Source: Cymodocea nodosa (lineage: Eukaryota; Streptophyta; Magnoliopsida; Alismatales; Cymodoceaceae). From it: 64,000 nucleotides of DNA. The notes beneath the pieces were generated by a model, which saw only the letters and a program-made list of their open reading frames with translations, did not search any database and had not been told where the DNA came from. Every line of letters starts with the position of its first letter. The first letter of the stretch is position 1. Shown here in pieces: positions 18,173 to 53,411 of the stretch. Location of the stretch: positions 20,000,001-20,064,000 of the forward strand of contig CM072337.1 in NCBI GenBank assembly GCA_036874045.1, written 5' to 3'. Both the position numbers and the translations under genes were made by a program.

Positions 18173-19063
18173 ATGGGCGAAAGAAAGACCAGGGACTTCA
18201 TGAGCGTCGACGCCTTCTCCCAGCTTCCGTTCATCCGCCCCGCCCCGACCAAGGACAAAAACTCCGGCAACGGCATCCGCCTCTTCGGCATCGAGGTCCC
18301 GCACGATGCTGACCGTCACGAAGAGGACTCTTCGTCTTCCACCTCCAAAGACAATAACCGGGGGAACAACACCGCCGGAACCGGTGACAAGAGCAGCAAC
18401 ACCGCAAATAACGGCCCCAACACTGGTGGCATCACTGGCAGCACCTTGGCAACCGCGAAGGGTAGCACCCGGAAGTTCGAGTGCCACTACTGCTGCCGCA
18501 ACTTCCCTACGTCCCAAGCACTTGGCGGGCACCAGAATGCGCACAAGCGCGAGAGACAGCATGCGAAGAGAGCCCACCTCCAGTCGGCTTTGGCTGCTGC
18601 CCACCACCCCGCCGCAATTGCCGAGAGCCATCTTTACGGCCTCGTCAACTACCACCGTGCTAGTCCACTGTCCGCGTCGCCCCGTTTCGCCATTGGCCAT
18701 GCCTTCGACTCCCATTACCCTTCTTGGAGCAGCGACGTCGCTGGCAACAACTATCAACCGACTCGGTTCTACGGTGGTCCACCCGGCTCCGTCTCTCAAT
18801 CTATAAACGGCAGCCAGTTCCCAAGACTATGGAGGATTTCACCGGTGCAAGGCAGGGACAGCCAAATTCCGTTGCACGGTGTCGATCGTTCAATGGCTTT
18901 ACCATTTTTTGGTGGAGGCGGCAACGGCATTGGCAGCGGCACCGCAGACGCTGCCATCGCTGCCCCCTCTTCTTCCTTGTCACCATCTTCGGAGAACGGG
19001 ATCATGTATGAACCAAAAGCGGCAGGAGTCAAAGACCACTTGAGTCTGGATTTGCATTTGTAA
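18173..19063 (+). CDS. single C2H2 zinc-finger transcription factor, ZFP5/6/8-GIS type
   Basis: Intronless, 296 aa, starting at ATG 18173 (MGERKTRDFMSVDAFSQLPF). One C2H2 finger spans residues 102-124 with Cys104, Cys107, His120 and His124 and the plant-specific QALGGH core. It is preceded by a low-complexity Ser/Asn/Gly/Thr linker (about 53-98) and followed by a basic KRERQHAKRAH stretch. The C-terminus ends LSLDLHL, an EAR-like repression motif. The early LFGxEVP segment (RLFGIEVPHD, 36-45), one finger and the terminal LSLDL match the plant ZFP5/ZFP6/ZFP8/GIS group, which controls trichome and epidermal cell fate through gibberellin and cytokinin signalling. The exact paralogue cannot be told from one sequence. 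Expected in the nucleus. The exon is GC-rich compared with its surroundings. Confidence 0.92.
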   Translation: MGERKTRDFMSVDAFSQLPFIRPAPTKDKNSGNGIRLFGIEVPHDADRHEEDSSSSTSKDNNRGNNTAGTGDKSSNTANNGPNTGGITGSTLATAKGSTRKFECHYCCRNFPTSQALGGHQNAHKRERQHAKRAHLQSALAAAHHPAAIAESHLYGLVNYHRASPLSASPRFAIGHAFDSHYPSWSSDVAGNNYQPTRFYGGPPGSVSQSINGSQFPRLWRISPVQGRDSQIPLHGVDRSMALPFFGGGGNGIGSGTADAAIAAPSSSLSPSSENGIMYEPKAAGVKDHLSLDLHL

Positions 19064-20619
19064 CAATGATCGATCGCAAACTTTCTATCAATGTCCCTCT
19101 ACCGTTTTTACTTAATTTTCTCCTTGCTATAAATATATATCTTTGATCACTTCATCTCTCCAGGCTATAATTGTTTCATTCATATATATACACATAGGAC
19201 AGGTAAATATTCCCATGCATCAAACATAAATCAGTTCCACTGTATGGGATCCGTTGCTGTGCGCCTCCTGCAGTCCTGCTTTTCTAAATGTAGAACATGA
19301 GTTCATATTAATTTTGTACCAGGATGTACAACATCGGCCAAGAGCTACTACTGTGCTTCCTGAGTGATGCCATCATCGATCAAATTGGGGATCGATTGTC
19401 TTCTTCTTGTACTCCCGAAGAGCTTCTTTCCATACATCTGCCAACTATGAGGAAGATGGCACATGCTTGAAAGAGCTAGCCAGGTCTGTAGGACCATATG
19501 TGCCCAGGCGTCTACGTAAGCATTTGCTTTACTTCTGTTTCTTGTGATTATTCATTTGCTTTACTTCTGTCGACTGCTCTTTTCATGAGGAATTATATTG
19601 GTCTCTTCGAAAACAACAATCGGATGCTCCAACCCTAACAGTTTTTTTTGTAATCTTATAGTTCTTGTAGTGTCTTTTTTTCCTGAATTTACAATCAATT
19701 TTTTCTAAAAGCCGATCTATTAATTGTTGTTTTTTGCTTAAATGTGAATCATGACTTTTTTTCCCCTTTATAACGTACAGACTACTCCAACAGATCAGAT
19801 CAACTTTGTTTTTTTTTTTTTTTTTTTTGGAAAATGGTAATCAGATGGACTTCAATAACCTCTTCTTTACGCTTTATATATATGGTGTGCACAAAAAGCA
19901 CGTTTTAACCAATTTTAGGTACCTGAATCAGTCACAATTACATGATTTTATACCTTTTGCTGGAGTTTAAATCTTGGTTTAATTTGTGACTGTAAATTAA
20001 CCAGTTGCATTTGAATGCTTTTCGTTTAAAGACTTGCGTTCTACTTGTCAGTACGTACTAATTAAAATTCCTTTCATATCATACATGTTAATTAGCTTGA
20101 TAATGAGTTTTTAATTACCACGTACTGATTATTTGAATTTTATTCCATTTCCTAGTTACTCTCATTTTAAACTTCTAATTTAGCTACCATATAGGAGTTG
20201 ATTTTTTTCCTCCAGAGCTAGACTACCAAGATGGTTCGAACCAATCGAACTGGGTTGATAGATAAACTGTAATTGTTTGGACGCTTAGCCTGCAGAGTAA
20301 CAAAATAATTGAACTTTGCAATTAAAATAATGGAATAGTACGTATAATTGATCTCTTGCTTCATTTTAATTAGGAAAGATGTCCTAGATTTGAATTTGTT
20401 CAGATTTTGGAAGAACACGTTCATCACTATTCATGTCTATAATTAATGATCTGTCTGATGAGTGGTTGTTCTACTCTCGGAGTTCTCTTTCTTTCTTGTT
20501 GATAAACTCAATGAAAGGATAGGTTCATTCACCAAGGAATGTGCAAGTGATGTAGGTGGTAGAGGCCTCATCTGCTCTAGCCAAAAAGTCTACTTCATGA
20601 GCACACGTATTAATTGCAT
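19064..20619. other. 3' region and spacer after the C2H2 gene
   Basis: 3' UTR presumably within the first few hundred bases. Long T run at about 19809-19828. No gene seen. Confidence 0.45.
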
Positions 20620-24873: not shown

Positions 24874-27099
24874 TTTTCGACAAGTCAACCTTTGATATTT
24901 ATTGTTGTTTGACTATGTTGTTTAAGACATTCATTAGTTTCGTAACATGCATGATGGAAAAATAACTCTCATAAAATCTTATAAAAAAATGCAACATATC
25001 AACCTCATACTCTACACTATTAAATTTTAACAAATAACATGGATATATGATTCAAATAATATGTATTAAATACATGTTTATACATATCTTGATATGTTAT
25101 ACGCCATTAATCAGTTCAATTAAACTATCCATAAAACCACAAATTGAAATTGTACATCAGTTATAAAAATTACTAAATTTATTGAACTGATCATGAACCA
25201 ATCCAAACTCGTTAAAAATGATTTGACTCAAATAACCAATTCGATGGGTTTCGATGCCCATCCCTAGCTAATTGTGTAGGTGGTTGGCATAAGCCACGAA
25301 TTCACAGCCTTAATTAGCCTTGGTGTTACCATAAATATATAGCATCTCAGCATTCCCTTCATATGCATGGAAGGTATATATGGTATCATGTCATTGTCGT
25401 TAATTACGCCAGCCCATTTTAATTTGTTCTTTGATGACATCTCTTAAGTCATGGTCTTTGCATTAATATTGTGGTGGACTCATCTTCAATTCAAAAGTTT
25501 CCATACCTCTTGGACTTGTTGGCAATTATGATGAAAGCTTTTCTAATAATTAAGTCAATGGTACATATAAGTTGGGTGACAAACATTTCTCACAGGTATA
25601 TCAAATTACTTAGTTTCATATCCTATTGTATTCAACACCTCACCTCCTCTATCATTTTAAAATCAATGGCTCGTTAATTAGAGAGATAGAATATCTACAG
25701 GACTTCTTTGTTTAATAAAAACAACTATAATTATTAAAAAATAAAATAAAGAATTTCATGAAATCACTTGATATTAACTTTTGTAGAGTCATAATTAAGA
25801 AAATTCCGTTGCCCACAATATTAGAAGATGAATGAATTGACGTAGATGGAAAGAAAATGAAACTAAATATTCGAGAGATATGAATGTTTTGACTTATACT
25901 TTAACTGTTGTGTAATACAATAAGATTTTTTCATGTAAAACATCACAAAAAGTTTGACATGTCTTAGAAATGATTTATAAAAGAACAAGTCAAGTAAAAA
26001 AAAATAAAAATCAATATCCTATTTAGAAAATGTGAAATGTTTAAAATAAATCTAAAATGATATCAAGATTTATAAGAATTATTAATGGTCTAAAAAGTAT
26101 TGGAAATTTTTTTACCATATATGAACAGATATCTAAAGTACTAAAAAATTTTACCACTGAATGAAAATAAAAATCAACTTCAATATAAGATATCTCCTCC
26201 ATTTGCACTCTTCAAGTTTGTCTTAAACCGTGTTCCTCCTTCTCAACCCCTGCGTTGCTTTTTTAATCGAATTTACGTACATATACGATAATTTTTTTTA
26301 CTTATTATTAATTTATTTTAAGTAAGTCAGATTTTCGTACGATAAATTCCTTTACTTACGTCGCCCGTTCCTCGCTCGTCTCGTAAGTCCCATCACCATC
26401 GGAAGGTGTCAGGGTTTCAAATTTTTTAATGTTTTGTAATATGGTAGATGATGTAAATATTTCTAGGTTTATTTGTTAATATCTTAAATTAAATCTTTTT
26501 AGTGTACTATTTCTGGAAACGAAAAAAGATTTTTTCTAATTTCAATTTTTTGAAAAGTTGGGTTGTGGTAGATTTTCTGAAAGTTCAACATTTGTACCAA
26601 CAGCAAAACTTACTTTTTTTTGGAAGAGTTCCGTTCATTAGGTAACGACATTTAACCAAAAAAAAAAAAAACTTTTCCCAAGAAATGAGATTGGTATCCT
26701 TAAGCAAAGTCTCCAACTTTAATAGTATTCAAACAAAATCATGATTAAAATTACGACGAACTGCATATCATAGTCATGCAAAAACAGTAAATTTCTAGAA
26801 GAACAGGTCCTCGACACCATATCATTTTTTAAATCATGTTTTCATTGTTTTGTGTGTGTGTGTGTGTGTGTGTGTGTTACACATGGAAGGTATCAATCTC
26901 GTGAAAAGGTAAATAAACCTTAAAATCAACTCACTTAATACAGCCACGTCATAATTATAATTCATTCATAATATAATTATAACAGTGTCATGATAATTAA
27001 TATTAAATTAAAAGATTATACTACAATTATGTGATTAATTTGTCACAACCATATTATAATTATACTATTCACCGTGTTGCGACACATTTGATCGATGAA
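24874..27099. other. AT-rich spacer
   Basis: No gene or RNA seen. A (GT)n microsatellite lies at 26850-26878, and a short TTTACTTATTATTAATTTATTTTAAG piece near 26297 recalls the TRIM LTR end. Confidence 0.45.
26850..26878. repeat. (GT)n microsatellite
   Basis: About 14 GT units following CATTGTTT. Confidence 0.95.
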
Positions 27100-27528
27100 T
27101 TTTTTAAAGTTCAACCTTTACGTTCGTGGATATATGTCGTCGAGAACAGGGGACTGGTAGTTCGCTTACAAGTCCATCTTCCTCCCCCAACACGCGCAGA
27201 TTCGAACGAGTGTGGAGGAAATTCTCGCACCGACGGCCGATCCCCTCTATGGAAGTGTGAAGGTGAGCACCATCCCTGCCGGAGTCCCCTCCGATCCGTA
27301 CGCCTCTTCTTTCGTCTTCTGTTCTCCTCTCTTTTGTTTCCTAAGGATTGGTTCTTATGTAACCCTAGCTTGAATCGGCAACTCTACGCCTTGCGTCTCT
27401 GATGCGAAATTGAGTTGGCGTTTGCTGCTATCCTGGGGCTAGCGGAGTTTTTTTTCTCCTTTTATTCCTCATTTTTGTGGTCAATCAAAATCTAATTCAC
27501 CTCATGTATTTCGTTTGGAAGCCCTTCG
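27100..27528 (+). promoter_or_regulatory. probable promoter and 5' leader of the twin-Cx9C/RMC1-like unit
   Basis: A local GC-rich island (about 27120-27430) in AT-rich DNA, with CT-rich leader-like sequence. A possible leader-intron donor (GAAG|GTGAGC) lies near 27260. It lies just upstream of the small twin-Cx9C gene and is the only promoter-like island before both that gene and the RMC1-like gene. Confidence 0.45.
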
Positions 27529-28559
27529 ATGAAAGAAAAAAAGAGTCCCTCGGTGCTCAAGTGCGTTTTGGTGAATTGTTCAGCTCAGGTCAGTATGATT
27601 CATGCTTGAAACCCGCCATTAACTGCATTTACACAAAATAGTTTCGGTTAGTGAATATGTGGTTTTTATCCCTTGAAATTCGACGCAATAGCACTGCAGA
27701 GGAATTCTCAGTGGTTGAATTAGGGTGTCAGCTTGTGGATATTTTGGCGCGCCTTAGATTAGGGTGCTTTCCGTTTTTGTTATCCTATGTACAAAGAATT
27801 TGATAAGGCAGAGATAGGCCTATTAATCGTGCGATTAGAAGCTTTAGAAAGGATCTAAGACTGTATGATGCAATATATAGGGAAACCTTTTCTTAATTAG
27901 ACAGTTGGAGATTTGGAGAGATACTATTTAGAATAATTCAACATCAGTAAATGAATTCGTGTTGGTATAGAAATGAATTTCTCCATTCATTATTTTGCCG
28001 ATAAGATAATGAGATTGACATATTATTGTTGTTGCATTTACGTGAGTAGGTATACTGAAATCTGATGTGTTTTTTGTTATGTTTGCACATGCCAACTAAA
28101 ACTGGAAGCTGAATATCCATAATAGTAATTTGATAGATCTTAAAAATATGATATTCTAGTAAGCTAATTTTATTTATCAATATACATTGCTCCTCTGGGC
28201 CTTAACTCTTCAAATTCTCATCTCATTCACTGTCCTTGATTGGACTGCACCTTCATAGCTTTCCCTAGGTCAAAGTTAACGATTAATGCCCAGCTCTTTT
28301 GCAGAAAAATGCTGCACCTTTTTTTTTTTTTTCCATTGATGTCAGCTTATTCCTTGCAGGCAAAAGTATATGGGAAATGCATTGCTGCAAAGGTTCCAGA
28401 AATTGAACATAACATGTGTCTGAAGGAGTTTGTTGCACTAAAGACATGCATGCAAAATACGGTATAAATTTTTCCTGTGTGATGAATATTTACCTATGTA
28501 TACTCTTTTTATACCTACTGATTGGTTTCATGCATTTAAAGCTCCAAAAGAAGGTATAA
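27529..28559 (+). CDS. NDUFAF8: twin-Cx9C (CHCH) protein, NDUFAF8-like, 59 aa
   Basis: Three exons: 27529-27588, 28360-28461 and 28542-28559. Donors are CTCAG|GTCAGT and ATACG|GTATAA; acceptors are CTTGCAG|GCAAAA and TTTAAAG|CTCCAA. All junctions are phase 0, sum 180 nt. The protein has two Cx9C pairs, CSAQAKVYGKC and CLKEFVALKTC, separated by 12 residues, the hallmark of small intermembrane-space proteins oxidised by the Mia40 pathway. The KVPEI...MCLKEF stretch matches NDUFAF8 (C17orf89), a complex I assembly factor, as I remember it. If the last intron is retained, the reading ends two residues later as QNTV instead of QNTLQKKV, so both forms are similar. It lies 212 bases upstream of the RMC1-like start codon and may be the first cistron of the same mRNA. 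Confidence 0.8.
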
Positions 28560-28771
28560 GATTAAATATGAGTTCCATCTAGGAAATGGTGATTCATTAA
28601 ACACTTACAAGCTTATTTATCAAGAACTCGCAACTTTGAAGCAAGCAATCCAGACAAGGTTCTCATTCATTTCCTGTTTGTGATTGTGGAGTCTTTCATT
28701 GCTACAACATCTAGAGCATTTGCAAGCCCATCAACTTAAGCATAGAAATCTGAAATCTGAAGAAGCCAGTC

Positions 28772-31700
28772 ATGTCTGGAAAAGAAGCTAGTGAACAGAG
28801 GATGGGTTTGAGTGGACCAGGGGCTCTTTCCCATGTTTATATTCAACATCCACCCCTTCGATGTGATATTCCTGAAACACAGGGACTATACTATGATGAT
28901 GGGAACAAACTAATTCTCTCTCCAACATCAGGACAGGTTACATGGTTACAAATGATGATTTTTTTTGACATCTCTTCATGTATTTGTCATAAACTTTATT
29001 TATTTCTTTATTTGTCTTTTTGTCAGGTATTGTCATGGAAGGTCGGTTCATTTGCTCATTGTGATCCCCCTGGTTCTGATTCCATTGATGAAGGTCCTGT
29101 TTTGCTTATTCGGTATTCATTGGATAGAAAAGTCATAGCAATCCAACGATCACATCATGAGATTCAGTTTAGGAATAAAGAAACTGGGGAGAAATTGACA
29201 CATAGATGCCGACCAGAATCTGAGAGCATTCTGGGATTTTTTTGGACAGACTGCCCAACATGTGATATTGTATTGATAAAGACAAGGTAATCCTTGTCAT
29301 TCTAGCATCAATTTTTTATTCTAGTTGTACCTATCCCAAATCCTAGCAGGGACTAAATGTAGATGATTTCATCCTAGGAAATGGAATCAACACTTGAGAT
29401 TATTATATACTTCAATGTTTTGACCGAGAGGAAAATAATGAAGCAAAATGATTATATGCCATACTTGAAATAACTGGACATTGGAAGCTTTGACATAAAC
29501 TATCCTAAATCCAAGCTTCTGAACACATGTTAAATAAAAATGGAGGACTAGGAATTTTCTTTGGGAAGAAAGGAACATATCATTGCACATTTCTGAGAAT
29601 GTAAATATATGATTTCTTGAATCATTCAAAATTATGTGTAAGTGCCATTTATTCTCAGTACACTCAAAACTTTCAAACACTATGATTTCCTTGCAGTGGG
29701 TTAGATTTACTATCTTATGAACAAGAGTTTAGACAACTCCGCTTAGTTGAGGCAAAACGACTAGTTGTGAGTTGGTATGCCTACACTCATGAAAGTCGAA
29801 TGGTTCTTCTTGCTTCTGGAATGCAATGCAAAATCTTTTCAGGGTATCAGGTACTTTTATGGATCTTACTTTTTTGGATTTCACATTTAAATATGATTCC
29901 AAGTATCATGATCTGTTTTTCAGGTCATGTTTCAGACAGCTTTGTTCATAAAAATTTGTGCTTTTGAGTTCTCTTTTTACCAATATATTTGACTTTGATT
30001 TTGTATCAAACTTAGGCATGTTGAAAAATAGATATTTGTCAGTAAAATTTCCTCATGTTGGAGTTATGTCGGTGGAACTATGGTGAAGAAAATCACCTTT
30101 TGTTAATAAATTATCAAGACAACATCATTTTTGATGTCATTTCAACAAGTCAAAAGATTGACACATATCATTGAAGTTTTGTCAACATGTGTCAATGTTT
30201 AATTCCATGCTTGTTACTTCAATTCTTTATGAATTTTAGGTCTAAGCTCCACAATTTATAAATTATAATATGAATTTCATGCCAATTTGGTTTGAAGTTG
30301 TGTCTTGAATGCTATATCAATTTATCATTATTCCATTACAAATGTAGTGAAAATTTAAAGTCTTTTTATACTTTGTCTATACAAGATTTTTAAAATATAA
30401 ATTATGAAATACTCACATTCAAGCATATTAGCATATAGAGCAACCTTTGTCCAAACAATTAACATGAATAACTAGTTTGACATGAATGCCATTTTGCATC
30501 CATTTTCTTGTTTTTCTATACAAAAATTATTGTCTTCCATGCATTGGTGATTGTAATATGATGTTCATTCTATTGGTCATTATCACAAAATCATTTTAAA
30601 GAAGAATTAAGGTTCTTTTGTGGGTGTATCCATGGTTCCTTGAATGTTAGCCATAAAACCTGGTGGCTGGATTGTTGTGAATCTATGACATCTTGTGCCT
30701 CCTCTTGGTAAAAGACCCATTTGATATTTGATTAACTTTTTTATGTTAATCAATTTACATATTGGGTGTTAAGGTGAATGCCATTTTGGAATATAGTATC
30801 TAGTATCAATACATATCAATGAAATCTTATTGATATGTATTGATTTTCAAATGTGTTTGACATGATATTTCAATGTATTAAACAAAATTTTGTCATGTAT
30901 TGACTTAGATCGATTGCATTGGTTGGTGTGCTGATACACCATGTGTATTGATTGATATGTCTGAAATATCAATCAACTAGTAATAGTCTCATGCATTGCA
31001 CAAATGTATATTTTATCAAAGTAATTTAAAATGTATAATATGCATAATATTGTTTATTTTTTAAGATAACAATATATCTCATCACTATTTTTATTTATTA
31101 AAATTATTAACCTTAACAGTGTTTATTTTTCTATAACTACTTGTTTATGGTGCATTTTGGATTTATTTATAATTTTAATTTATAGTTTTACTTGAGATCA
31201 ATTTTGATGGAAATTTTGGTGGAAGTTAGGTAAAATCATGGAAGTCTCCAAAAAATGTCTAAAAAGTATGAATTTCAATGTGAAATTTTAATACAAGCTA
31301 CAATAGTAAAAAATACACATCAAATAATAATCAAAATAATTTTCTATGTATTTATGAAATTGAAAATACATTATACTACCATCTCACTTCAAAGTCATAC
31401 AACTTTAAATCTACACAAATCACCAATTATACAACTAAATATACCCTACATCTAACTTAAAATATGTTAAAAAAAAAATTCAGTAAAATAAATCGAAAAA
31501 AAATTAAACCAAGTCACCCAAACTTGGAAAACTTAGAAAAACAGTAAGAAGAATTTTAAATAACCTTATATCCAAACATTCCAACTTAGAAAAAATCGTT
31601 TGTAGTAAAATTACCTTAGATCTTCAATACGAAGGGAAAAACACCTTGTATCAGCTAAAATGGCTGTTATAAGGTGTTCTTATGAATTTGGTGGCTGCTT

Positions 31701-34700
31701 TGAATTATCTGGTGAGAGATGGAGGCAGATCCAGTAAAGAAAATGCAGCTTCAACAAACTTTTAGACTCCACCAAGATCTTATGCTTGGAAGAAAAAAAG
31801 AGAAAAAAAAGCCTTCCATGCAGTGTGAGAATGGGAGGAGAAACTTAACTATGTAAAGAAATGAGATTGCAATGGTCACATGGGTGTCGTTGTAGATGCC
31901 ATTTTGGTCAACTGAAATAATGACATATATTGAAGTTTGACACTATGATTAAAAGTAGTAGAAGAAAATATTATAATTAAAATAGTAATTGAAGCATGAG
32001 TAAATAATGTGTTATATCCAAAATTCATAAAAAAATTATGTGAAGTTTATGATGAAGAAATTATTTTATTTGTAATATAATATGCATTAGATTGCATGTA
32101 TTAGTGCAAATATCGTTTCTCCTCTTCTCTACTTTTAATCTTTTTTTTTTATACGATTTTCTCTGATGGTATTTTACTTTTAATAATCTATCTCTTCTTC
32201 TCCAAGAGGTTTTTTAGTTTTTAATCTCATTTCTTTTTTATTAGTCCACTAGCTTAGATTTTTTTTTTTTTTACGTTTCATATTTTTATTACATTTGAAA
32301 ATTTAAAGATTTTTCTATTGAATTTTCACCAATATTCAGATTTTTAGAGATTTAAATTGGAGGTTAGCAATGAGGTTTGTCCCTTTTTATAGAAGGATCA
32401 ATGACCTGATAGAGGATGGAAGTACATTAGTACATTCATCCTTTTAAAATACTGTAAGTCTGTAACTGCTGTACTTTGGTAGGTCACATTGGTGATAGTT
32501 TCTACTCACTCCTTTTGCTCTCAACAGTGTGACCTCTTCTTGTAGGAAATTTTGCCTGATGCAAATCTTATCCTGAGATAAAGTAGATGGGTAATTTTCA
32601 AGTATCAGTTCAATTACTGGCAGTAGGTGTGGTTTTTGCCTCCTTCTGGTGTAAAGGAAGGAATTTTTTCCATTTGACCAATTTTTTTTGGCATTTGTGC
32701 CTTTCATGGTACAGGCATCAGGAACATTTCTCTTGGCCTTCATTATGGTAGCTTGTTGCTGATTATCCATTTTATACTCTGACTTATGTCCTTTATTTTG
32801 TGATTGACATGCAGTGAATCCATTATTCTTTTCTTTCATTTGACACTTATTTTGTTTCCCAGTTCTCATCTGTAGAGATTGTTCGCTTGCCAAAATTTGA
32901 AATGAAATTGACTATAGCTGAGGCAAATCACAAGCCAGTCATTTCTGCTGAAGATGTGAACATTGTTACAATGTTAGTTATGTTTTCTAACTATATCATT
33001 TCTTTTGTTCTGTTGGCCTTTATTTGTCTGTCTTGTTTAGTGAGATTGACATTGATTAGTTGACTATCATTGTTATTGATCTTTCAGTGGACATAGATAT
33101 GCATTAACGGTCCTCTCTAAGTTCATATTTGTTCATCTTAATTATAGATGAAATAACTAAAGAAAATTAAAAAGAAATACTCTAGCATATGCTATTTACC
33201 AATGACAGTTTTAGTTGATGTAAGTCAAGAATAAATTTTAATTTAGAGTTATTGAGAGATACTTAAAGTCCAAAGAATTTAGATTAAGTCAAAACTGAAT
33301 GTATGGAATATAGGTTCGATAAAAATATAAATAATAATGAAAGTATATATTTAGATGACCATAAGATTCATACAACAAGACTTAAATATTTAAGATCTAT
33401 GATAAGTGACAATGGTGAATTATAAAGGATATTATTCATAAAATTAAAATAGGATAAAAAAGTAGAGAAATGCTTTTATAGTATTATGTAATAGTATAAT
33501 GTCTTTAAAATTAAAAGGAAAATTGTATAAAACTTCTATTTACCAAATTATACTTTATAACTCAGAATATTGAATTGTAAAACATGACCATATGTTAAAA
33601 CTTAACGTTGTTGAGACCTTGAAATATGTATGCTTAAATGAATAAATGGTAATACTATAAGAGATAGGTTGAAAAGAAATTTTATTAAAAATAGAATAGG
33701 AGTTGTACAAATTAAAAATAAGAGAAAATCAGCTTATTTAATTTGTTTATATCCTTAGGAGATAAAAATGCACTAGTTAAGAGAGGAAACTTAATTAATA
33801 TAGAAAAAATTAAAATAAATTGAGGAAAATCTAAAATTGTTTGGTTAGAAATGTAAGGAAAATTTAAATTTATATAATTTAATTGAAGATTTAACCATGA
33901 TAGAAATACATAAAAGAAAAACATTCATGTGTCTGACCTTGTGTGGTAAGATTATGATTCAAATTGTTGTTGTTGATCTTTATGTATAATTATATCTATG
34001 TGCAATTAGATCCTCTCCAGACTTCATATTTATTGGAGCCTTAAGCACTGGATTTACTCTTTTTGGGCCTAGTTTATCTCCTTGCTTTCTTTTTCACATG
34101 TAGTTACATCCCTTGGTGATGGTTTCATCTTTGTCATATGCTTGTGTACAAAATATCGAAATATGTACTAACCAACTTTGATTAATTGATGTAAACGATT
34201 GAAGGTCATTAATTCGTAAGATTTTTTTAAAGGGTTAATTATTTACTAGGATTTTGATGCTCTATATTTTCCCAAATGATTAAATATTTTTTAGTGTTTC
34301 TTCTGGTGATTAGCATTGTCTGTTTATGCAGCTATGGCAGGATATATTGCCTTCAGGTTGATCGAATTGATATGCAACTACACATGTACAGGTTTTACCG
34401 TGATGCTGTTGTGCATCAGGTGCAATATATAAATACCTGCTTTTACCTTCGAACTTGGTTATATTTCAAATTATCTTTAAAACTTGTATGCTTGATATGT
34501 ACATCAAACAATAATATTCTTAAAAGGAAGTTTCATAAAAATTTCATTTGTTGCAATTTCAAATGTTTCTAAACAGGCAAATTTAAATGCCACCTTATTT
34601 TCTATAATTTTGGTTTTTGGTAGCTTTTCCTCACAAAAATGCAACTTCAAGTTTGTTAGTGCCATCTTAATATTAATTATTGGTGTAATGGTATCAAATC

Positions 34701-37700
34701 AAAGTGATTTTTTGAAATCAACATATCAATCTTTATCTTTGATGGTTGTTCTCACTTATGATTACACTTGTTCTGTGTTTGGTTGTTTTCTGAGGTTGTG
34801 CCAACAGCCTTTTATATCATTAATAGGATCCATTCTATCTAGTGGAGAAATATCTTTTCAGATGTTTTATTTGGATTTGGAATTATGTTTTCTTTCAAGG
34901 CATTTGGATGTGTTTCCTTTGTTTAGAATTTGATTTCACTTGTTCATAAGTTGTTACCATGGTCCCTTGCATTTTTTGGGTACTCTTGGCCTTGAAAGAG
35001 TTATCAATGTCATCATTTTCCCATTTGTTGATATATTGTTTTATCAGGTATTACCTTCTTGTGTCTCGGTCCTTTTTTGTATTTGTTGATCAGTCTCTAG
35101 AAAGTGTCAATATTCCTCCACAAGTTGAGGACTCCACCACAGCTGAAGAATGACCAATTATGGTAAATCATCATGATCAACAGTCACATGAGTCAACCCA
35201 TCTTATGGATCTACACTCCTTTGATCTTAATGTTCTCCTAATTCTTTGTAAGGGTAACTGATCTACCATAATTGATCATATATCTCGTTCAGTTTCCTAT
35301 GGTCATTTTCATCTCATAGTTTTGTCTTGTCCATTTCCTCACCAAGGAGTTTTTCTCATTCAACATTAGAATGATGTTATAAATGAACATGGTTGTAGGA
35401 ATAACATGGGACTTGGTTGCTTACCTCATCAGAGCTAACATGGTTGTAAATGGGTTTTCATTGTCAAACATAATTTAGATGGGTTGTTCAATAAGTACAA
35501 GTTTTCACACATGGCCTAATTGAACTCCATGTGTATGTGAGATTCAATTGTTGTCAATCATCATAAGAGTTATACAAACTCATTGTGAAGAATGTTTTTT
35601 TTTGTGGTGACTTGGCAAAACAAAATATTTATTAAGCAATCTCTAAGGTATATATTTCAGGATTACCTTGAAAGACTATCTATGGTCTTAAGAAAAGTCT
35701 ATGGATCATGGAATGTTGAAAGCCAAAAAGCATTATTGATCACTCTAACATTCACTAAAAGGCAAACTAATGGTTGTGTTTTCTTTGTTGTCTATAACAA
35801 TAATAACAATCAATTCCTTAATCTCACCATATGGGGTCAGTAATAGAAATCAATTTATATTAGATTAACAAATTTTTACAAGCAGTTGTCAATCTAGTGT
35901 TAACCCTTTACCTATGCTTATGACTAACTATTTAGGAATACCCTCACAAGTGTTTTCTTTGTTCTTTATGTCAATGATGTTCTTTTAAGTATGATATTTG
36001 ATGATGTAGGCCAATATCAACATTATTTTTTTTGTCTCACTATTTCCTACGATGTCCCCTATCAAAAGAATGTTTACTTGAGGATGTAGACCGATATTGA
36101 TGATTGATTAAGAAGTTATCTATTTAACTATTTATTACTCATTGTTATTTGCTGTTTTGTATTGCTCGCTAGATATTTTCTATGATGTTGAATTCCTTAT
36201 TCAATTTATACATGAGCTATGGATGGTTTGTTGATAGGGTACTCTACATCCACTAGCAATGTTAATGGTACAACTAAGTTCTTATTAACAAAAGAATGTA
36301 AATCTTTGGTTGAAGCTTATTTAGATTAGACTAGGCTATGCAAAAGATGGAGATAGTCAAATGTCTATATATTGTATGCATATTGGAGGCAACCTTGTCA
36401 TTTAGTGGAGAAAGAACTAAAATATAATATCTAAATTTTGTGCCCAAATAGAGTATTACTCCATGGTATAGTGAGTATGTAAGATGATGTTGCCTATACC
36501 ATTCATAGTTGAGCTTGAAATTTTTTTATACATTATGAAAACTAGGCTACAATCTTTTTTTTAACTCAATTTTTCCAATAGTTGGTCATCAACTTCATTA
36601 TGAAGAGGTCTTGGATTTCAATTCAAGTAAAAACAGGCATTATAAAAAAAATTAAAAAAAACTTTCATTTCTTTTAAAACACATAAAGCACATTAAGGGT
36701 TCATTTGTGTATCCAGAAAGTAATAAAAGGGAATAAAAAGAACGATCCAAAAAAAACATAAAAAGTAACAGAAAAAAATTACAGAAAGTTAGCAGAAATA
36801 TAGATATTTACACACAGTAAGGAATGTAATAGAAAACAATAGAAAGTAACAAAATATGAATTTAATAAAATATAACTGTTCAACGCTTGTAACAAGTTTA
36901 TAAATAAAATATGATGTTTACAATAAAAGATGATGAAATTTGATTTTTATGATTTATGATGATAAAATATGATTTTTATGATAAAATGTCATTGTTATGA
37001 TTTATGGTGATAAAATATGATTTGTAATGATAAAATATGATTTTTAAGATAAAAGATGATAAAATATGATTTATGATGATAACATATGATTTTTATGGTA
37101 AAAGATGATAAAATATGATTTTTAAGATAAAAGATGTTAAAATATAATTTTTATGATTTATGATGATAATATATAATTCATAAGGAAATTAAAAGAAAAC
37201 TTTTGTTCAATATATGATGGAGATGAGTCATCACTTTTCAACTCTTTCATACCTCTTAGGATAAAAAATGAGGTATGAAGAAAAATCTTTCTCGGAAAAG
37301 TTAGAGTGAAAAGTTTATTAAACTTTCTTTTACTTTCCATCGTACATAAATATCCTACATTTTATTTTAATTTTTTATTACTTTCATTTCTATTTCTTTT
37401 TGTCACCTTCTGTCATATAGAAATCCCTCCTAAATTTGATTATCACTATGTACATTATAATAGTGATGTGAGGAATTATTTATTATCATGTCTTCTAAGC
37501 AATTGACATATATCTTCATTAAATGTTTGGTTTTTTGAATCTTTTTATAATAAGTAGAACATGACAAATATATATATGCTTTAACTTGAGATTGTGTTAG
37601 GCATATTTGTACTATGGTTATTAGGCATCCATTTAGTTGTGTCATTGAATATACATCTACTTAGTTGAGTCTATATATATGTACTATGTCACATGAATAA

Positions 37701-40700
37701 GACTTGATAATAAATAAGTCAATACTGATTCAACTCAATCTAAAAATAAATGAAGAAAATGCCTTAAAGTTTTTCAAAATTGAGATTTTTTTTCTTTAAA
37801 TTTTATCTTTTGAAAAGTTAGATAACGAAGAAATGGATCTAAACCAATTCAAGTATTATGATTATAAACTAATAGCGATTTGAATCTTTTGAAATGATGA
37901 CATCAACTTGTTATAAGCTTCAACCATTGGATCAACTGATTAAACAAGTGGGCAATCTATTTTGATCCATAGTTGGTTCAACCAGTGATTTGTTTTTAAG
38001 TCATTGATTAGGGATTATTATAAGAGAATGTTTGTTATAATTTGCATGTCGCAATTCATAGTCAAATACAATTTAAAAAGAATCTAGTTAACTAAAAATT
38101 TAATTATTAATCAAATGGGTTATGAGAGAGGCATGGTGCAATGATAAGGTTGTACCCTTGTGATTTGTAGATCACATGTTTGAATTTTAGGAAATAGTTT
38201 TTTCATTTCTAGAGGTAAGATTGTGTATGATTAGACCTCTACATCTAGGATTGCACAACGAGTAGGTTATAGGTCAAAATAGGCATTAATCATTACATTA
38301 TATAAGCATTACTATTAATTGTATAACTATAGCATAAAAGAATAAAATAGATAAAAACATCCATATTTAATAATCCACTGTCCATAATGAATAAAATAGT
38401 TAATCAGGTTAGGTCATTTAATAGAAGAATACATTATATTATTCCATTAGTTCAGCCAACTTATTATCAGTTTATTAACCAACCTGACTTTCCTATTTAG
38501 ATCTGCAATCCTATTTAGATCTCACATTCATGGGAGCCTCATGTATTAGATTTATCCTCTTACAGTTTTACTGATTAGATGGATTATACTTCAATCTAGC
38601 AGTATTCCAACATCTTGAGCTTTCCTATGATTTTCAAGCACCCAAATTATGAATGAGAAGTACTTAATGAAATTTCACATAAATATTTATGATATTCATT
38701 TTTACACGGCATTTAACTGGATGAAGTGTCTATTTTTTCAGTATGAAACCAAATTCCATGAGTTTTGAACATACAACACCATGAGCACTTTGTTTTCTTT
38801 AATCACCTCCCACAAATTGTAGGAATATGAGATGGATTTCTAAATTTTATTTCTCATAATCTTAGGATCCGTACATCTAATAGATACATCGTAAGCAGTA
38901 CATATGTAATTCACTGTTATTTGAATATTCCATTATCAATAACGGTTCTTGACTTTGCACAATCAGAGCCTTTAACATTCCAAATCTGCTATTTAAAGGA
39001 GAGGGTAGTTGCATTTGCATTGTTATTTATACTAATCGCCTTCATCTGCAGGGTTCCCTTCCAATTTACTCAACCAGAATTGCTGTGAATGTTGTTGATA
39101 ATGTCCTTCTTGTGCATCAAGTAGATGCCAAAGTTGTCATATTGTATGACATCTTTCTGGATTCACTGTCACCAATATCAGCTCCACTTCCCCTGTTAGT
39201 GAAAGGTGCCACAAGAGGAATTTGTTCTTCATCTCAAGCCAACACACGTCAAGTAATAGATGTAGAGCCTAATCCATTGAGTGCTTATGAGGGAATCATA
39301 TTCGGAAATAGTTGGAGTTTTCTTGTGCCTGACCTTATCTGTGATGTTGATCATGGCCTTGTATGGAAAATTCATTTGGATTTGAATGTGAGTTAAATTA
39401 TTAAAATTTTATTTTGTATAATCTAGAAGATGCCTATTTACTATTTTAAGAATTTAATAATAACCTGATATAGATGTCAGAAATTGTTTGTGGCTTCAGG
39501 CAATTGCTGCAAGCAGTTCTGAAGTCCCTTATGTTCTTGAGTTTTTGCAGCGGCGAAGGTCTGAACCAATGAAGGTTATGTTTTTTTTTTACCTTGTTCA
39601 TATTATTATTAAACACAGTATGTACATCAAATTCTTTGTTGGAGAGTTTGGCCTTGATGTCTTATGGTTGGATGTTTCAGACGAAGCAGTTGTGCCTAGC
39701 ATTATTGCGTGCCATTATCCTGGAAAGAAGACCTATTTCAGTAATTTCCAGGGCAATAAATGTAGTAGCCGCTTCATTTTCTCAAGATTTAAAGCTGCAG
39801 AATGCTAGTCGGCGAGGGATTGCTAGAGCTTCTCCTGATGGTCCTATTTCTGGAGGTCAAAGTATCTACAATGGTCGAGAAGGAACACAAAGGGAGTCCA
39901 TTGGTGGTATCCCCAACCAAGTCAAGCATGCTATACCTAATACTAGTAATCCATCAACATGTAGAGATCCGGACTCAGAAGGAATTGCAAACTTGGGGCA
40001 AAGAAAAGCTATTTCAGAGGAGTCTCGTGTGCAGTGTTTGCCCAGTGATCTTCATGCTTCAAGTGCAGGCAGTGGGGGAATAAGTAATACATGTGATGTG
40101 AATATAGATGTTGACAATAGGCAGTCCCAGTCACACTCAGAAATAGTTCATCATGATGGCAATCCACTGGTTTCTACTGCACCTGAGATTCAAAACTCTA
40201 CAGTCACTACTGTTGCAATCTCACCGGTTGAAATGTATACTTTTGTCTTTTCTCTTGTGGAGGAGGCGATGACCGGAGATCCTGCATATTTGATTGCTGT
40301 CATCATAGAATTCCTGCAAAGGTAAAAGAATAGTGTGTTTAGAACTTCACATTTTATACCTATCTTTGCAAATGACTTACATATATTAAAAAATTCCAGT
40401 TTTCCATATGCAATCACATTGACGTCCTTCCCTTTGTTGATAATGTACCTTTTGTGCTTTTGTACTTTCATTTTGCAGTGCAACCCACGAAAATCTCAAG
40501 GTTCCTCAAAACATTTATCTCATGACAATAAGGCTTCTTGCCTGCAGTGACCGCTACACAGAACTTGGAATGTTTGTTGCAAACAAGGTTTTATTTTGAA
40601 TCTGTTCACAATATCTATTACATCTTCAACTTGTGTATTTTAAATTATGTCTTTATATAACACTGGTAATGGTTAGTTGTCTTATGGTAGGGCCTTCTTA

Positions 40701-43133
40701 CTCTTATTGATATTCATTTTTTTTATGATAACTACCACTGAATGCAAATGGTTTCAAGGAAGTTCACATCTTGTATACTTTGAATATATTACGTTTGTAT
40801 TGCAAAAGTCTTAGCTGGTTACTTCTATACGAATGCTGTAAGAGATATCTACTACTTTTGAGTATGAAAGGAATATTCCATGTCATTGATGCTCTTAAAC
40901 CTAGGTGGATATCTAAACTTTCAATGTTGATTTTTTTTGAAGAAAATTCCAATCTTGACTGTTAATTTGAAGAAATGGATTGTGAGATTGGCAACTGTCT
41001 ACAAATCATTCACTGCTTGTGGGGAGTTGACTTTGTGAGAAAGCACCACCATTGCTACATTAGAACTAATCTTGTAAGGATAGCAGACTACCTTTCTGTG
41101 AATATATTCAAAGTGATCCTCTTCTGATATAAAAGATTGGAATGACACCTTTTTAAAGAAGGTAAATATTCACATGGAGGGAGAGAGGTGTCAAAGATGG
41201 AGTTATGGGATATTGAATGGTAAATGTAGGACTGAGGGGTGTTTTGAAGTGAATTGTCATCCTTTTGCAAACCAGATAGAGGATAGATGCATGATAATTG
41301 AAGGGAGAGGGAGACAACTGAATTTTGTTTTTAGATGGAAAGGGGCACATCTCCATATTGAAGCAGAGTTTGTCGCTTAAATATAATATTTAAATTATGT
41401 TCATTAAATTTTTTTTTTTTTATGAAGACTAATATGTGATCAATTATTTACACATCATTATTTGACTTTGTTTTTTATATATTTTAGTATGTTATAAAAT
41501 ACCCTTAATGAGCTAGCATCTCTCTGGTTAATATAGGCATTTTAGTGCTTTTCCCTCGGATTTGCCTTTTTGTGTCAATGGCATACGTACTTGCAATGTT
41601 ATTTTATCATTCCAAAATTCCCTCAAAGTTCTTTTTAAACGTTGAATATGGTATTATAATTTTCACGAGGAAGAGGATATAATTTGGTTCATATTTGTCA
41701 TACAGATTTTAGAACCATCAAAAGAAATTGCCTTGCGACTTATTGAGACGGGGCACAGGCACACCAGAAAGTTGGGCATGGATATGCTTAAAGAGCTATC
41801 ATTACATCAGGAATATGTCCAGGCCTTAACCCAAAGTGGACACTACCTCGAAGCTCTTCATTATGCAAGGAAAAACAAGGTATCTGGATGATTAGATGCC
41901 CTAGAATTCTTTCAGCATTTTAGTGGTCTATTGTTTCAGATTTGTTGAATTTAATGTGGACTTGATTTCAATATGTATTATATCAGTTTTTGATATTCTG
42001 GACATCATTAAGTTTTACATATTTACATAAAGTGGACTATGTAGCTGTAGGCGCGCTTACTGCCAGCATGCCATTTTTAATGAAATAATTATTTTTTTAA
42101 CAAATAACAATATTGTTGCATTTATTAGATATCTGTGCTATATGTGATAACTTTTCATTCCAGTCAACCAACTATAAACCCTTATCTAAAGGTCCTAAAT
42201 ATTCAACGAATTTTGTTAAATTATAACTCTTAAATTTTAGATTAAAATCAGCATTGAATATAGTCTTGATTAGAATGAAACTTCAATGCAGTAAATCATT
42301 TTCTAGTTGAACTAATAATATAAGCATATTTTATTTTTTAGTAAATTTAGAAACAGCATGCAGATAACGATATTAGCTGTGGCATGGCTACAACAGTACA
42401 ACCCCATTTTTACTTTTTAAAAATGAACGGTACATGCCTAGTTTTGTCGTATGATACTATAACAAGCAACTTCAGGTATCGAGATATCATAGATCTCCAT
42501 GTTAAGATGGAGTAATCTTGCAGTTTTGCCGAGGCTTACCTCAAAAAGTATCACATAGACTCCTCATATGAGCAAACATGCTAGATATGAGATCAGGTGC
42601 GATTTGTCTGCACAGCCATACTTAATTGACGGCGTTTTACACTGATCATGCATTAACTTGAAAGTTTAATTTGCATGAATTTATTTTTTACATATGAGTT
42701 CAAAATTGAATTAGTGCTTCCTTTTTTATTGTATATACATTGGATGTAAGATTGTGATCACATAATGAGTCAATGACTATTATTCCTGAGGACATATTAC
42801 TATAATCCTCACAATATCTAAGGGCATTATAGAAAAAAAGGTAAAAACTAACTCTCGCTTTTCCTGAAAAAATGTAGATTATTAGACTATTCTTTTCTTT
42901 TTTTCTTTTAGTTCGATCAGCTTGTAGCTAAAATTTTGATGCTCGAATCTGTCAATTTTTTATTCATACAGGTCGTAATTAGTCGACCATCCCTGTATCT
43001 TGAGGCTGCCCTCTCCAGGAACAATATGGAGCACCTTGCTGCACTAATACGGTTTTTCTCTGAATATGTTCCAGGATTCTCTGCCAGTTCAGATTACAAT
43101 AGATACTGTCACATTGTAAGCGGAATAAGTTAA
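28772..43133 (+). CDS. RMC1: RMC1/Mic1-like regulator of the MON1-CCZ1 complex, 11 coding exons, 757 aa
   Basis: Exons: 28772-28936, 29027-29286, 29697-29850, 32863-32972, 34332-34419, 39052-39387, 39500-39574, 39681-40321, 40479-40587, 41706-41879 and 42972-43133. All introns are GT-AG, all phases agree, sum 2274 nt. Conserved blocks include LSHVYIQHPPLRC, ESILGFFWTDCP, YTHESRMVLLASGMQCK, YGRIYCLQVDRIDMQLHMYR, DNVLLVHQVDAKVVILYD and the C-terminal Mic1 helical region (ARKNKVVISRPSLYLEAAL). These match the family of human C18orf8/RMC1 and its single plant counterpart. RMC1 supports the MON1-CCZ1 guanine-exchange complex that activates Rab7 on late endosomes and the vacuole. A beta-propeller-like N-terminal half is expected. 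Exon 8 carries a long polar, poorly conserved insert (residues after about 430). Introns are swollen by transposons, the largest being 4.6 kb. Confidence 0.93.
30806..30843. repeat. perfect 14-bp inverted repeat in intron
   Basis: TCAATACATATCAA and its exact reverse complement separated by 10 bases, inside the third RMC1-like intron. AT-rich; probably a relic of a small inverted-repeat element. Confidence 0.7.
33340..33945 (+). mobile_element. LINE-type reverse transcriptase 3' relic
   Basis: Broken frames recall the C-terminal part of plant LINE reverse transcriptase: a RIHTTRLKYLRSMISDNG block (compare FRYLGSML..DG) at about 33365, LKLKGKLYKTSIYQIILYNSEYW (shortened relic of LKGKFYRTAIRPAMLYG.ECW) at about 33510-33575, then ETLKYVCLNEW (compare MRMLRWMCG) and an IHKRKTFMCL tail near 33905. 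Stops throughout. Sits in the RMC1-like intron in the same orientation as the gene. Confidence 0.65.
35260..36470 (+). mobile_element. Ty1/copia pol relic in intron
   Basis: Degenerate copia pieces in gene order: a SHSFVLSISSPRSFSHS piece preceding RT (about 35300-35370), GCKWVFIVKHNLDGLFNKYK (about 35440-35505), a worn YVDD-region piece (about 35955-36000), and the RNase H region NLVIWWRKN... IEYYSMV (compare SWKSKKQ... AEYRAMA) at about 36390-36470. Several frameshifts. No LTRs were recognised within the intron. Confidence 0.62.
36698..37433. mobile_element. possible non-autonomous inverted-repeat element
   Basis: The left end (AGGGTTCATTTGTGTATCCAGAAAGTAAT) and the reverse complement of the right end (AGGGATTTCTATATGACAGAAGGTGA) are similar, and both run into AAAGTAATAAAA-type sequence. 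The interior is an AT-rich tandem array. No target-site duplication is clear, so the limits are tentative. Confidence 0.35.
36905..37175. repeat. AT-rich tandem array, TGATAAAATATGATTTTTA units
   Basis: About nine to ten imperfect units of roughly 25-32 bp built from GATGATAAAATATGATTTTTATG, with variants (TTTTAAGATAAAAGA). It sits in the 4.6-kb RMC1-like intron. Confidence 0.8.
38115..38288 (+). mobile_element. tRNA-derived SINE, Au-like
   Basis: Pol III promoter relics are in place: an A box TGGTGCAATGATAAGG (38134-38149) and a B box ATGTTTGAATTTT (about 38176-38188), 27 bases apart. They are followed by an Au-SINE-like body (GAGGTAAGATTGTGTATGAT... AGACCTCTACAT... GATTGCACAACGAGTAGG). From memory this matches the widespread plant Au SINE consensus (GGGTAAGGCTGCGTAC...). 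It inserted into the large RMC1-like intron in the sense direction. Confidence 0.68.
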
Positions 43134-51518: not shown

Positions 51519-53411
51519 ATGCGATGCCACGCACTTCCGCATTGTCACCGCCACCGCCCGCTCCAATACCCGCGGGCCTTCGCTTCCACTCTCTCGCCGC
51601 GCCTGCGTCCACCACCTTCCGCCAGCCTCTCGGATGGAAGAACGGCCCATCCCCCGCCACCCGCCCTCCACCCGGACTCCATCGCCGACTCCGTCCTGTC
51701 CGCTCAGTGGTCCTCTCTCGACCCCATTCTCCCAGCGCTAACCCCAACACTCACCTCCTCCGTCCTCCTCACCCTCCATCGTCGCGCCCCGGGCTGCATC
51801 CTCCCCTTCATTGACCGAATCGGGCTCCGTCGTCTCGATCGAGATTCCCTCCTCTCCGCAGCCGCCCTTCTCGGCCCACTTCCTGCAGTTCGCCTTCTGA
51901 AGCAGGCAATCACCATCGGGGAGATAACTCCACGACGAGATCTACTCGAACAAATAATCGAAGTCCAACACCGGTACTCAGCCTCGGTTTCAAGTACGAC
52001 AACTGTCCTCGACCTTCTCATGAAGACCTGCGCCGACGTCGGAAAGGTTGACAAAGGTTTCGATGTGTTCTTCTTCATGAAGGAGGTGGATTTGATGCCA
52101 AAGATCGAGTCCTGCAATTCTTTGCTGAGCTCGTGTTTGCGGTCTGGACAGATGGGGAAAGCATGGGACCTGTTTGCTGAAATGTACAAGAGAAGGATCC
52201 AACCCAACGTGGTCACCTACAATATAATGATTAATGCGTTATGCAAGGAGGGGAAGGTTAAGAAAGCAGAGGCCTTCGTGGATTACATGGAAGCTTCTGG
52301 TGTCCATCCAACGACTGTGACATATAACACACTGATTGGTGGATACTGCTTGAGAGGGAGGCTCGATGTTGGTCTCAAAATGATGGATTTAATGAAGACG
52401 AAAGGTATCAAGCCTGATGCCTACACTTATGGCATAATTATATCCAAACTTTGTAAGGAGAGGAAGCTTGAGGAAGCGTCGATGATTCTGGAAAGGATGT
52501 TGGCTGTCGGATTGCTCCCAAGAGCATTCACATACAATGCGCTAATAGATGGGTATTGTAATGAGGGGAAGCTAGACGTGGCAATCAAGTGTAAGGATGG
52601 GATGGTGAAGAATGGTGTCAAGCCCACGGTTTCCACGTTTAACGTGCTCATTCGTACCTCTTTTGTCGAAGGGAGAGCTACTGAAGTCGAGGATTTGATC
52701 AACGAAATGAAGCAACATTGTCTACTGGCTGATGCAGTTACATACAATGTTATGATCAATGGATACTCTCAGGCAGGTGATGTGAAGAAGTGCTTCAAGC
52801 TATTTGATGAAATGCAGAATGAAGGAGTGCATCCCAACGGAGTAACCTTCACTAGTTTAATTTATGTTCTTTGTCAGAGAAGAAGATTGGCTGACGCTGA
52901 GAAATTGTTCCAAGACGTTATCGGGAGGGATATATCACCAGATGTTGTGATGTTTAATGCATTGATAGATGGAAATTGCCGTAATGGTAATATGGAGCGA
53001 GCATTTGCATTACTAAAAGACATGGACGAGAGAAAAGTATCTCCTGATGAGGTGACATATAACACACTAGTGAAAGGTCTTTGCTTGCTTGGGAAAGTCG
53101 TGGAAGCTCGTGAATTGGTCGAAGTTATGAAGGAGAGGGGGATCATGCCGGATCTTGTGACGTTCAACACTCTTATTAGTGGTTACAGCAGAAAAGGAAG
53201 CATAAAAGATGCATTGAGTACGAGAGAAGAGATGATGCACCAGGGGTTTAATCCCACGTTGCTGACCTACAATTCACTCATACAAGGCTTGTCTGAGATT
53301 GGGGAATGCATTCGTGCACGGGAACTACTTAATGAAATGTTGGGAAAAGGCATTTCTCCTGATGATAATACTTATATTCATTTGATAAAAGGGTTCGGTG
53401 ATCAGTCTTAG
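51519..53411 (+). CDS. P-class pentatricopeptide repeat protein, 630 aa
   Basis: Intronless, as is usual for PPR genes. ATG at 51519. The first ~60 residues are rich in His, Arg, Pro and Ser and almost free of acidic residues (MRCHALPHCHRHRPLQYPRA), like a mitochondrial or plastid transit peptide. From residue 161 to 615 the sequence tiles into 13 consecutive 35-residue PPR motifs with no gaps (for example VVTYNIMINALCKEGKVKKA), and a 14th is cut after DNTYIHLIKGFG. No E, DYW, SMR or LAGLIDADG domain follows, so it is the pure P subclass: sequence-specific RNA binding, typically RNA stabilisation, splicing or translation in organelles. The RNA target is unknown. A gypsy relic lies close upstream and may limit the promoter to about 460 bases. 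Confidence 0.95.
   Translation: MRCHALPHCHRHRPLQYPRAFASTLSPRLRPPPSASLSDGRTAHPPPPALHPDSIADSVLSAQWSSLDPILPALTPTLTSSVLLTLHRRAPGCILPFIDRIGLRRLDRDSLLSAAALLGPLPAVRLLKQAITIGEITPRRDLLEQIIEVQHRYSASVSSTTTVLDLLMKTCADVGKVDKGFDVFFFMKEVDLMPKIESCNSLLSSCLRSGQMGKAWDLFAEMYKRRIQPNVVTYNIMINALCKEGKVKKAEAFVDYMEASGVHPTTVTYNTLIGGYCLRGRLDVGLKMMDLMKTKGIKPDAYTYGIIISKLCKERKLEEASMILERMLAVGLLPRAFTYNALIDGYCNEGKLDVAIKCKDGMVKNGVKPTVSTFNVLIRTSFVEGRATEVEDLINEMKQHCLLADAVTYNVMINGYSQAGDVKKCFKLFDEMQNEGVHPNGVTFTSLIYVLCQRRRLADAEKLFQDVIGRDISPDVVMFNALIDGNCRNGNMERAFALLKDMDERKVSPDEVTYNTLVKGLCLLGKVVEARELVEVMKERGIMPDLVTFNTLISGYSRKGSIKDALSTREEMMHQGFNPTLLTYNSLIQGLSEIGECIRARELLNEMLGKGISPDDNTYIHLIKGFGDQS

Follow-up and report, generated by a model that had tools for sequence, protein, structure and literature searches.

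Plant upstream open reading frames (uORFs) of homology group 8 encode a CHCH peptide ahead of an ORF described as 'similar to Mic-1', as in Arabidopsis At3g12010 and rice LOC_Os10g26140 (Hayden & Jorgensen 2007, PMC2075485). The group was found through comparison of Arabidopsis and rice full-length complementary DNAs (cDNAs), and every land plant group 8 uORF was paired with a Mic1-like ORF (PMC2075485). The land-plant peptides are 59-62 residues long with two C-x9-C pairs spaced 11-15 residues apart, and their introns lie between residues 3 and 4 after the first motif cysteine and between residues 4 and 5 after the fourth. Ka/Ks ratios calculated with yn00 are 0.14 for the uORF and 0.11 for the main ORF, while the codeml value of 0.01 for the uORF was flagged as unreliable (PMC2075485). 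According to a 2012 review, group 8 is probably a dicistronic transcript, and the Cx9C protein that it encodes belongs to cluster 21 and has no known function (PMC3426882). Here we describe a gene pair of this type in Cymodocea nodosa, found in a 64,000-nucleotide stretch of its genome (the window; contig CM072337.1, positions 20,000,001 to 20,064,000, 36% GC; genome of 375 Mb in 28 contigs).

Two genes adjoin on the plus strand of the window, a 59-residue twin-Cx9C gene and then an RMC1 gene, separated by a gap of 212 nucleotides; their structures are predictions from the DNA. The small protein has the length of the group 8 peptides, a 12-residue spacing between its cysteine pairs and both introns at the exact published positions, and RMC1 follows directly on the same strand. 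Protein type, length range, cysteine spacing, intron positions and type of downstream gene are thus common to the locus and to group 8, and no difference was seen in this comparison with the published description of the plant members. The arrangement of the pair is already known in land plants, and the locus is a well-formed orthologue of it. The conserved-peptide uORF that the sequence-only reading had placed upstream of the Arabidopsis Mic1-like gene is indeed the published one of At3g12010 (PMC2075485). What is new here is the CpG and promoter support for a shared promoter of the NDUFAF8-like and RMC1 genes. We consider it probable that one promoter drives one bicistronic mRNA with the NDUFAF8-like ORF followed by RMC1, the second ORF being reached by leaky scanning and reinitiation; we infer both the single transcript and the translation route.

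The CDC26-TTM3 locus (group 30), the most thoroughly studied analogue found, offers a second plant parallel, in which a small conserved functional protein is encoded first and a larger unrelated one second on one mRNA (PMC11291117, PMC7943633). It differs in the proteins encoded, and it has been studied experimentally, is conserved also in green algae and is affected by nonsense-mediated decay (PMC11291117). Phenotypes of ttm3 mutants were ascribed to loss of CDC26 (PMC7943633).

The small twin-Cx9C protein and RMC1

The three exons of the small gene assemble through GT-AG introns and end in a stop at 28559, as predicted by the sequence-only reading. The product over its exons is MKEKKSPSVLKCVLVNCSAQ / AKVYGKCIAAKVPEIEHNMCLKEFVALKTCMQNT / LQKKV and stop, with Cys 17, 27, 40 and 50 forming the two C-x9-C pairs. 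The introns interrupt SAQ/A, after residue 3 past the first motif cysteine, and MQNT/L, after residue 4 past the fourth. Local alignment to human NDUFAF8 (C17orf89), whose sequence was entered by hand rather than from a database record and was compared in length and at six aromatic residues with PMC7042492, gives a score of 79. This score was reached by none of 5000 cysteine-fixed shuffles and none of 5000 full shuffles (highest 55 and 52). Identity extends to 15 of 44 aligned residues, including the equivalents of Tyr32 and of Phe55, the latter being substituted in one subject with Leigh syndrome (PMC7042492). Since the peptide fits the published family, including the two exact intron positions, and has this NDUFAF8 score, the small gene is more than a chance ORF. 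The alignment, which beats all shuffles, supports the earlier view of a twin-Cx9C protein akin to a complex I assembly factor, and the gene likely encodes the plant counterpart of NDUFAF8.

The Pfam CX9C family (PF16860), a general model of the motif and not of NDUFAF8, matches the small protein with 20.7 bits (E=3.9e-4), under its curated cut-off of 26.4. No close relative was found among PDB sequences at E up to 1, where CHCHD5 (0.84) and Mia40 (0.9) were listed. A genome search with the same Pfam model (six candidates scored, E up to 0.1) pointed to two other places, on contigs C12 and C2. The present gene, whose motif is divided over exons, was not among the places listed in that search. 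The place on C12 (G000:C12:324069-324188, minus strand) is another Cx9C reading frame, with 40.3 bits, above the Pfam cut-off. Among viral contigs, 13 stretches match the pattern of the small peptide and none was confirmed as a relative.

Twin Cx9C motifs are common to the human and plant small proteins. Human NDUFAF8 stands alone, its group 8 expressed sequence tags receiving poly(A) soon after the ORF (PMC2075485), whereas the plant gene precedes RMC1. Interaction of NDUFAF8 with NDUFAF5 and its requirement for complex I are human data (PMC7042492). The same paper presumes a matrix location and calls the choice between intermembrane space and matrix unproven, so that the 'intermembrane-space protein' of the sequence-only reading is not settled. 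We take Arabidopsis AT3G12012 to be presumably the group 8 uORF, going by its locus number. The protein AT3G12012.1 is mitochondrial by SUBA5, turned up in each of the six digests of a proteomics study and is one of the TAIR10 entries absent from Araport11 (PMC11142381). The words NDUFAF8, C17orf89 and 'complex I' do not occur in PMC2075485 and PMC3426882, and we make no claim that the link between NDUFAF8 and group 8 is unpublished. In the available portions of other sources, NDUFAF8 occurs only in the reference lists of PMC10434966 and PMC11362043, is entered as 'n.d.' in the protist table of PMC7050145 and, like RMC1, is not mentioned in PMC13303939; text matches to 'HG8' in PMC7106846 correspond to HG80 and higher numbers, not to group 8.

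The second gene starts at an ATG at 28772 on the same strand, 212 bases after the small gene, exactly where it had been placed, and its coding exons can be traced to a stop at 43133, the middle of the exon set being incomplete. Long AT-rich introns occupy 29850-39052, where a small exon is likely near 32876-32972. Pfam RMC1_N matches the first RMC1 ORF (E=8.3e-27, 94 bits) and RMC1_C a downstream piece (E=1.7e-11, 44.5 bits); a second RMC1_C piece has E=3.8e-05 and 23.7 bits, short of the curated 26.9-bit cut-off, and the piece at 38953-39393 gave no Pfam family match. The joined exon peptides align with human RMC1 (9l0d chain C) in three colinear stretches (E=2.6e-27) and with the fly protein 8c7g (E=1.9e-11), which we take to be Bulli. 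By these domain and chain matches the predicted downstream gene is RMC1, in line with its first description as RMC1/Mic1-like. The 2012 review equates Mic-1 with GDF15 of the TGF-beta superfamily (PMC3426882). That identity was rejected for the downstream gene: Pfam scans of the four RMC1 pieces found no TGF-beta family, three of them matching RMC1 domains and one nothing. Since the Pfam and PDB matches show RMC1, conclusions resting on GDF15 are misplaced.

Both genes appear to be single. A 39-residue piece of the small protein and an 85-residue piece of RMC1 exon 2 each have one match in the 375 Mb. No second free-standing copy of either gene was found genome-wide, in a search that scored exons singly and that a diverged copy could escape. 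The pair thus appears to have no retained duplicate, a trait of group 8 reported for Arabidopsis.

Promoter and CpG landscape of the pair

A single promoter-like island occurs close to the pair, at the small gene (27001-27800), as had been noted from the sequence; by the same rule, the previous island ends at 19200 and the next one downstream starts at 45001. The small-gene island has patches of pyrimidines and, at 27361, a telo-box-like AACCCTA, and no TATA match. The gap has a GC fraction of 0.37 with a single CpG, and a scan of 28560-28771 for TATA[AT]A[AT] found no match, which bears out the claim that no GC-rich or TATA-like promoter lies there. The sole match in 28100-28772 is TATAAAT at 28463, in the second intron of the small gene. 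The observed/expected CpG ratio (CpG o/e) is 1.03 at 27100-27700 against 0.14 in the gap. It stays at 0.08-0.32 in each 1-kb step over 28000-41999 and then rises to 0.65-0.84 up to 45 kb, the CpG-poor block beginning inside intron 1 of the small gene and not at the gap. Read as a footprint of gene-body methylation, this pattern would mark one transcription unit. The CpG-poor stretch (28001-41999) tracks the gene body and ends near the 3' end of RMC1, and may be usable in this genome as a marker of where transcription units begin and end.

As controls we used the 26 Ras-family matches, of 107 in the Cymodocea nodosa genome, that start at profile position 1, the start codon being taken as the farthest in-frame ATG no more than 45 codons upstream. 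Over the 212 nucleotides upstream of these starts the CpG o/e has a median of 0.92 and a minimum of 0.19, compared to 0.14 for RMC1 and 0.84 for the small gene; over 500 nucleotides the control median is 1.05 and the minimum 0.26, compared to 0.19 and 1.14. RMC1 lies below all 26 control starts, and the small gene has values typical of a gene start. At three other starts of genes within the window the values are 0.61, 1.78 and 1.13 over 212 nucleotides, the first of them, that of a zinc-finger gene, having only 0.40 over 500 nucleotides. The CpG evidence fits one promoter for both genes.

One transcript or several, and access to the second ORF

A promoter at about 27.1-27.5 kb would produce a pre-mRNA extending to about 43 kb and carrying the two ORFs, the first for the putative complex I assembly factor and the second for RMC1, regulator of the MON1-CCZ1 Rab7 exchange factor. 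Using a simple rule for AUG strength (purine at -3, G at +4), the first AUG of the spliced model is weak (-3 T, +4 A) and that of RMC1 adequate (-3 G). Seven AUGs lie between the two starts. Two are in frame with the small ORF (21 and 9 codons) and the other five open frames of 17, 9, 18, 4 and 4 codons, so that all seven frames have at most 21 codons and end at least 171 nucleotides before the RMC1 start. The two short frames announced for the gap both exist, the second starting at 28586 and not at 28585, one base off. With seven AUGs in between, leaky scanning alone is an unlikely route to RMC1. The layout fits a combined route, in which scanning subunits would miss the weak first AUG, bypass the small ORF by leaky scanning and then reinitiate downstream of a very short ORF to reach RMC1. 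Green-algal bicistronic loci likewise combine a weak first-AUG context, two ORFs per unit and leaky scanning; they have fewer AUGs upstream of the second ORF and generally short inter-ORF regions, in contrast to the seven AUGs and 212-nucleotide gap of Cymodocea nodosa (PMC11892635). The unspliced leader before the small gene has five more AUGs, three of which would be deleted by splicing of a putative intron of the 5' untranslated region (27262-27520). One upstream ATG, at 27504, lies 25 nucleotides before the small-gene start and, on the unspliced leader, begins a frame of 43 codons overlapping with the small ORF; the same possible intron would remove it.

Several points weigh against the single bicistronic mRNA. 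A footnote of the 2007 study places the Arabidopsis uORF outside the annotated locus, no more than 2 kb upstream of it (PMC2075485). The seven AUGs between the starts include one in strong context, and of eight readthrough bicistrons tested in Arabidopsis, seven showed only rare translation of their second ORF (PMC9768141). The CpG controls belong to one family, are partly paralogous and so are not 26 independent draws, and have mechanically chosen start codons; two of the 26 are also CpG-poor over 212 nucleotides (0.19 and 0.25), and 13% of 212-base windows within the 64 kb are as CpG-poor as the gap. Finally, ATTAAA at 28561 and 28596, just past the first stop, could polyadenylate a short mRNA. 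These two signals also favour an alternative that we judge rather unlikely, in which one promoter yields two mRNA classes and alternative splicing or early polyadenylation leads to mostly monocistronic messages. A possible leader donor after 27261 with the acceptor-like TTTGCAAG/CCCA at 28727 could generate such a form, and a change of splicing pattern or of start site is a known way for plants to leave out uORFs. However, group 8 was discovered from Arabidopsis and rice full-length cDNAs, and the text available of that study gives a fusion of uORF and main ORF only for group 17 and no uORF-less form of group 8 (PMC2075485).

It is improbable that the genes are two independent transcription units, RMC1 having a promoter of its own within the gap or within intron 1 or 2 of the small gene. 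The TATAAAT in intron 2 and TGGGCC/AGCCCA motifs at 28196 and 28725 could serve such a promoter, and among the 271 Arabidopsis readthrough loci reported there are start sites for 202 second genes (PMC9768141), but the CpG o/e upstream of RMC1 over both distances and the start of the CpG-poor block within intron 1 argue otherwise. A promoter in the gap was rejected as the leading reading, the CpG o/e there being under that of all 26 control starts. Least probable is that the small ORF acts mainly as a peptide-dependent regulatory uORF stalling ribosomes to control RMC1. The original catalogue lists the ORF as a conserved-peptide uORF, and its authors suggested a possible dual role (PMC2075485); detection of the Arabidopsis protein AT3G12012.1 in mitochondrial proteomics speaks against this role as the main one (PMC11142381). 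The bicistronic mRNA driven from the island at the small gene is the reading that we favour.

Features of the window and significance of the pair

Features of the small gene-RMC1 locus (positions in the window)
Feature	Position	Strand	Remarks
Promoter-like CpG/GC island	27001..27800	+	upstream of and into small gene
Possible 5'-untranslated-region intron, unproven	27262..27520	+	AAG/GTGAGC ... GGAAG/CCC; inference from sequence
Small gene exon 1	27529..27588	+	weak ATG context (-3 T, +4 A); first motif cysteine
Small gene exon 2	28360..28461	+	three of four motif cysteines
Small gene exon 3	28542..28559	+	LQKKV then stop
Intercistronic gap	28560..28771	+	212 nucleotides, GC 0.37, 1 CpG
4-codon ORF MSSI and stop	28568..28582	+	in gap
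4-codon ORF MVIH and stop	28586..28600	+	only strong AUG context before RMC1 (-3 G, +4 G); ends 171 nucleotides before RMC1
RMC1 first coding exon	28772..28936	+	ATG at 28772 (-3 G, +4 T); exon can end at 28936
RMC1 second coding exon	29027..29286	+	RMC1_N
RMC1 third coding exon	29697..29850	+	exon peptide
RMC1 middle exons, approximate limits	39052..40321	+	holds start of RMC1_C match
RMC1 exon within RMC1_C	41706..41879	+	acceptor 41706 or 41713
RMC1 last coding exon	42972..43133	+	ends HIVSGIS, stop

Three further reading frames were noted in the window. The frame at 18173-19063 encodes a plant-type C2H2 zinc-finger protein with the QALGGH motif (Pfam zf-C2H2_6, E=6.3e-05, just under cut-off). 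A single open frame at 51519-53411 codes for a PPR protein with ten matched stretches (PPR_2, E=6.3e-139), and a WRC-domain reading frame lies on the minus strand at 57-545 (E=1.5e-16).

We raise as a tentative possibility that the pair is a working bicistron through which production of a complex I assembly factor and of a Rab7 regulator would be coupled, their ratio being set by the weak start of NDUFAF8 and by the series of very short ORFs. If such coupling exists, starvation or TOR signals that alter reinitiation would tip the output towards complex I building or towards endosome/vacuole maturation, and phenotypes of insertions in plant RMC1 (Mic1) could partly reflect loss of the small protein, as for ttm3 and CDC26. 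If both proteins are made from a single mRNA and from no other, annotation that retains just the longest ORF misses a likely complex I assembly factor, and downstream-gene mutants have to be examined for loss of the upstream gene. The locus offers a clean natural test of second-cistron translation in plants.
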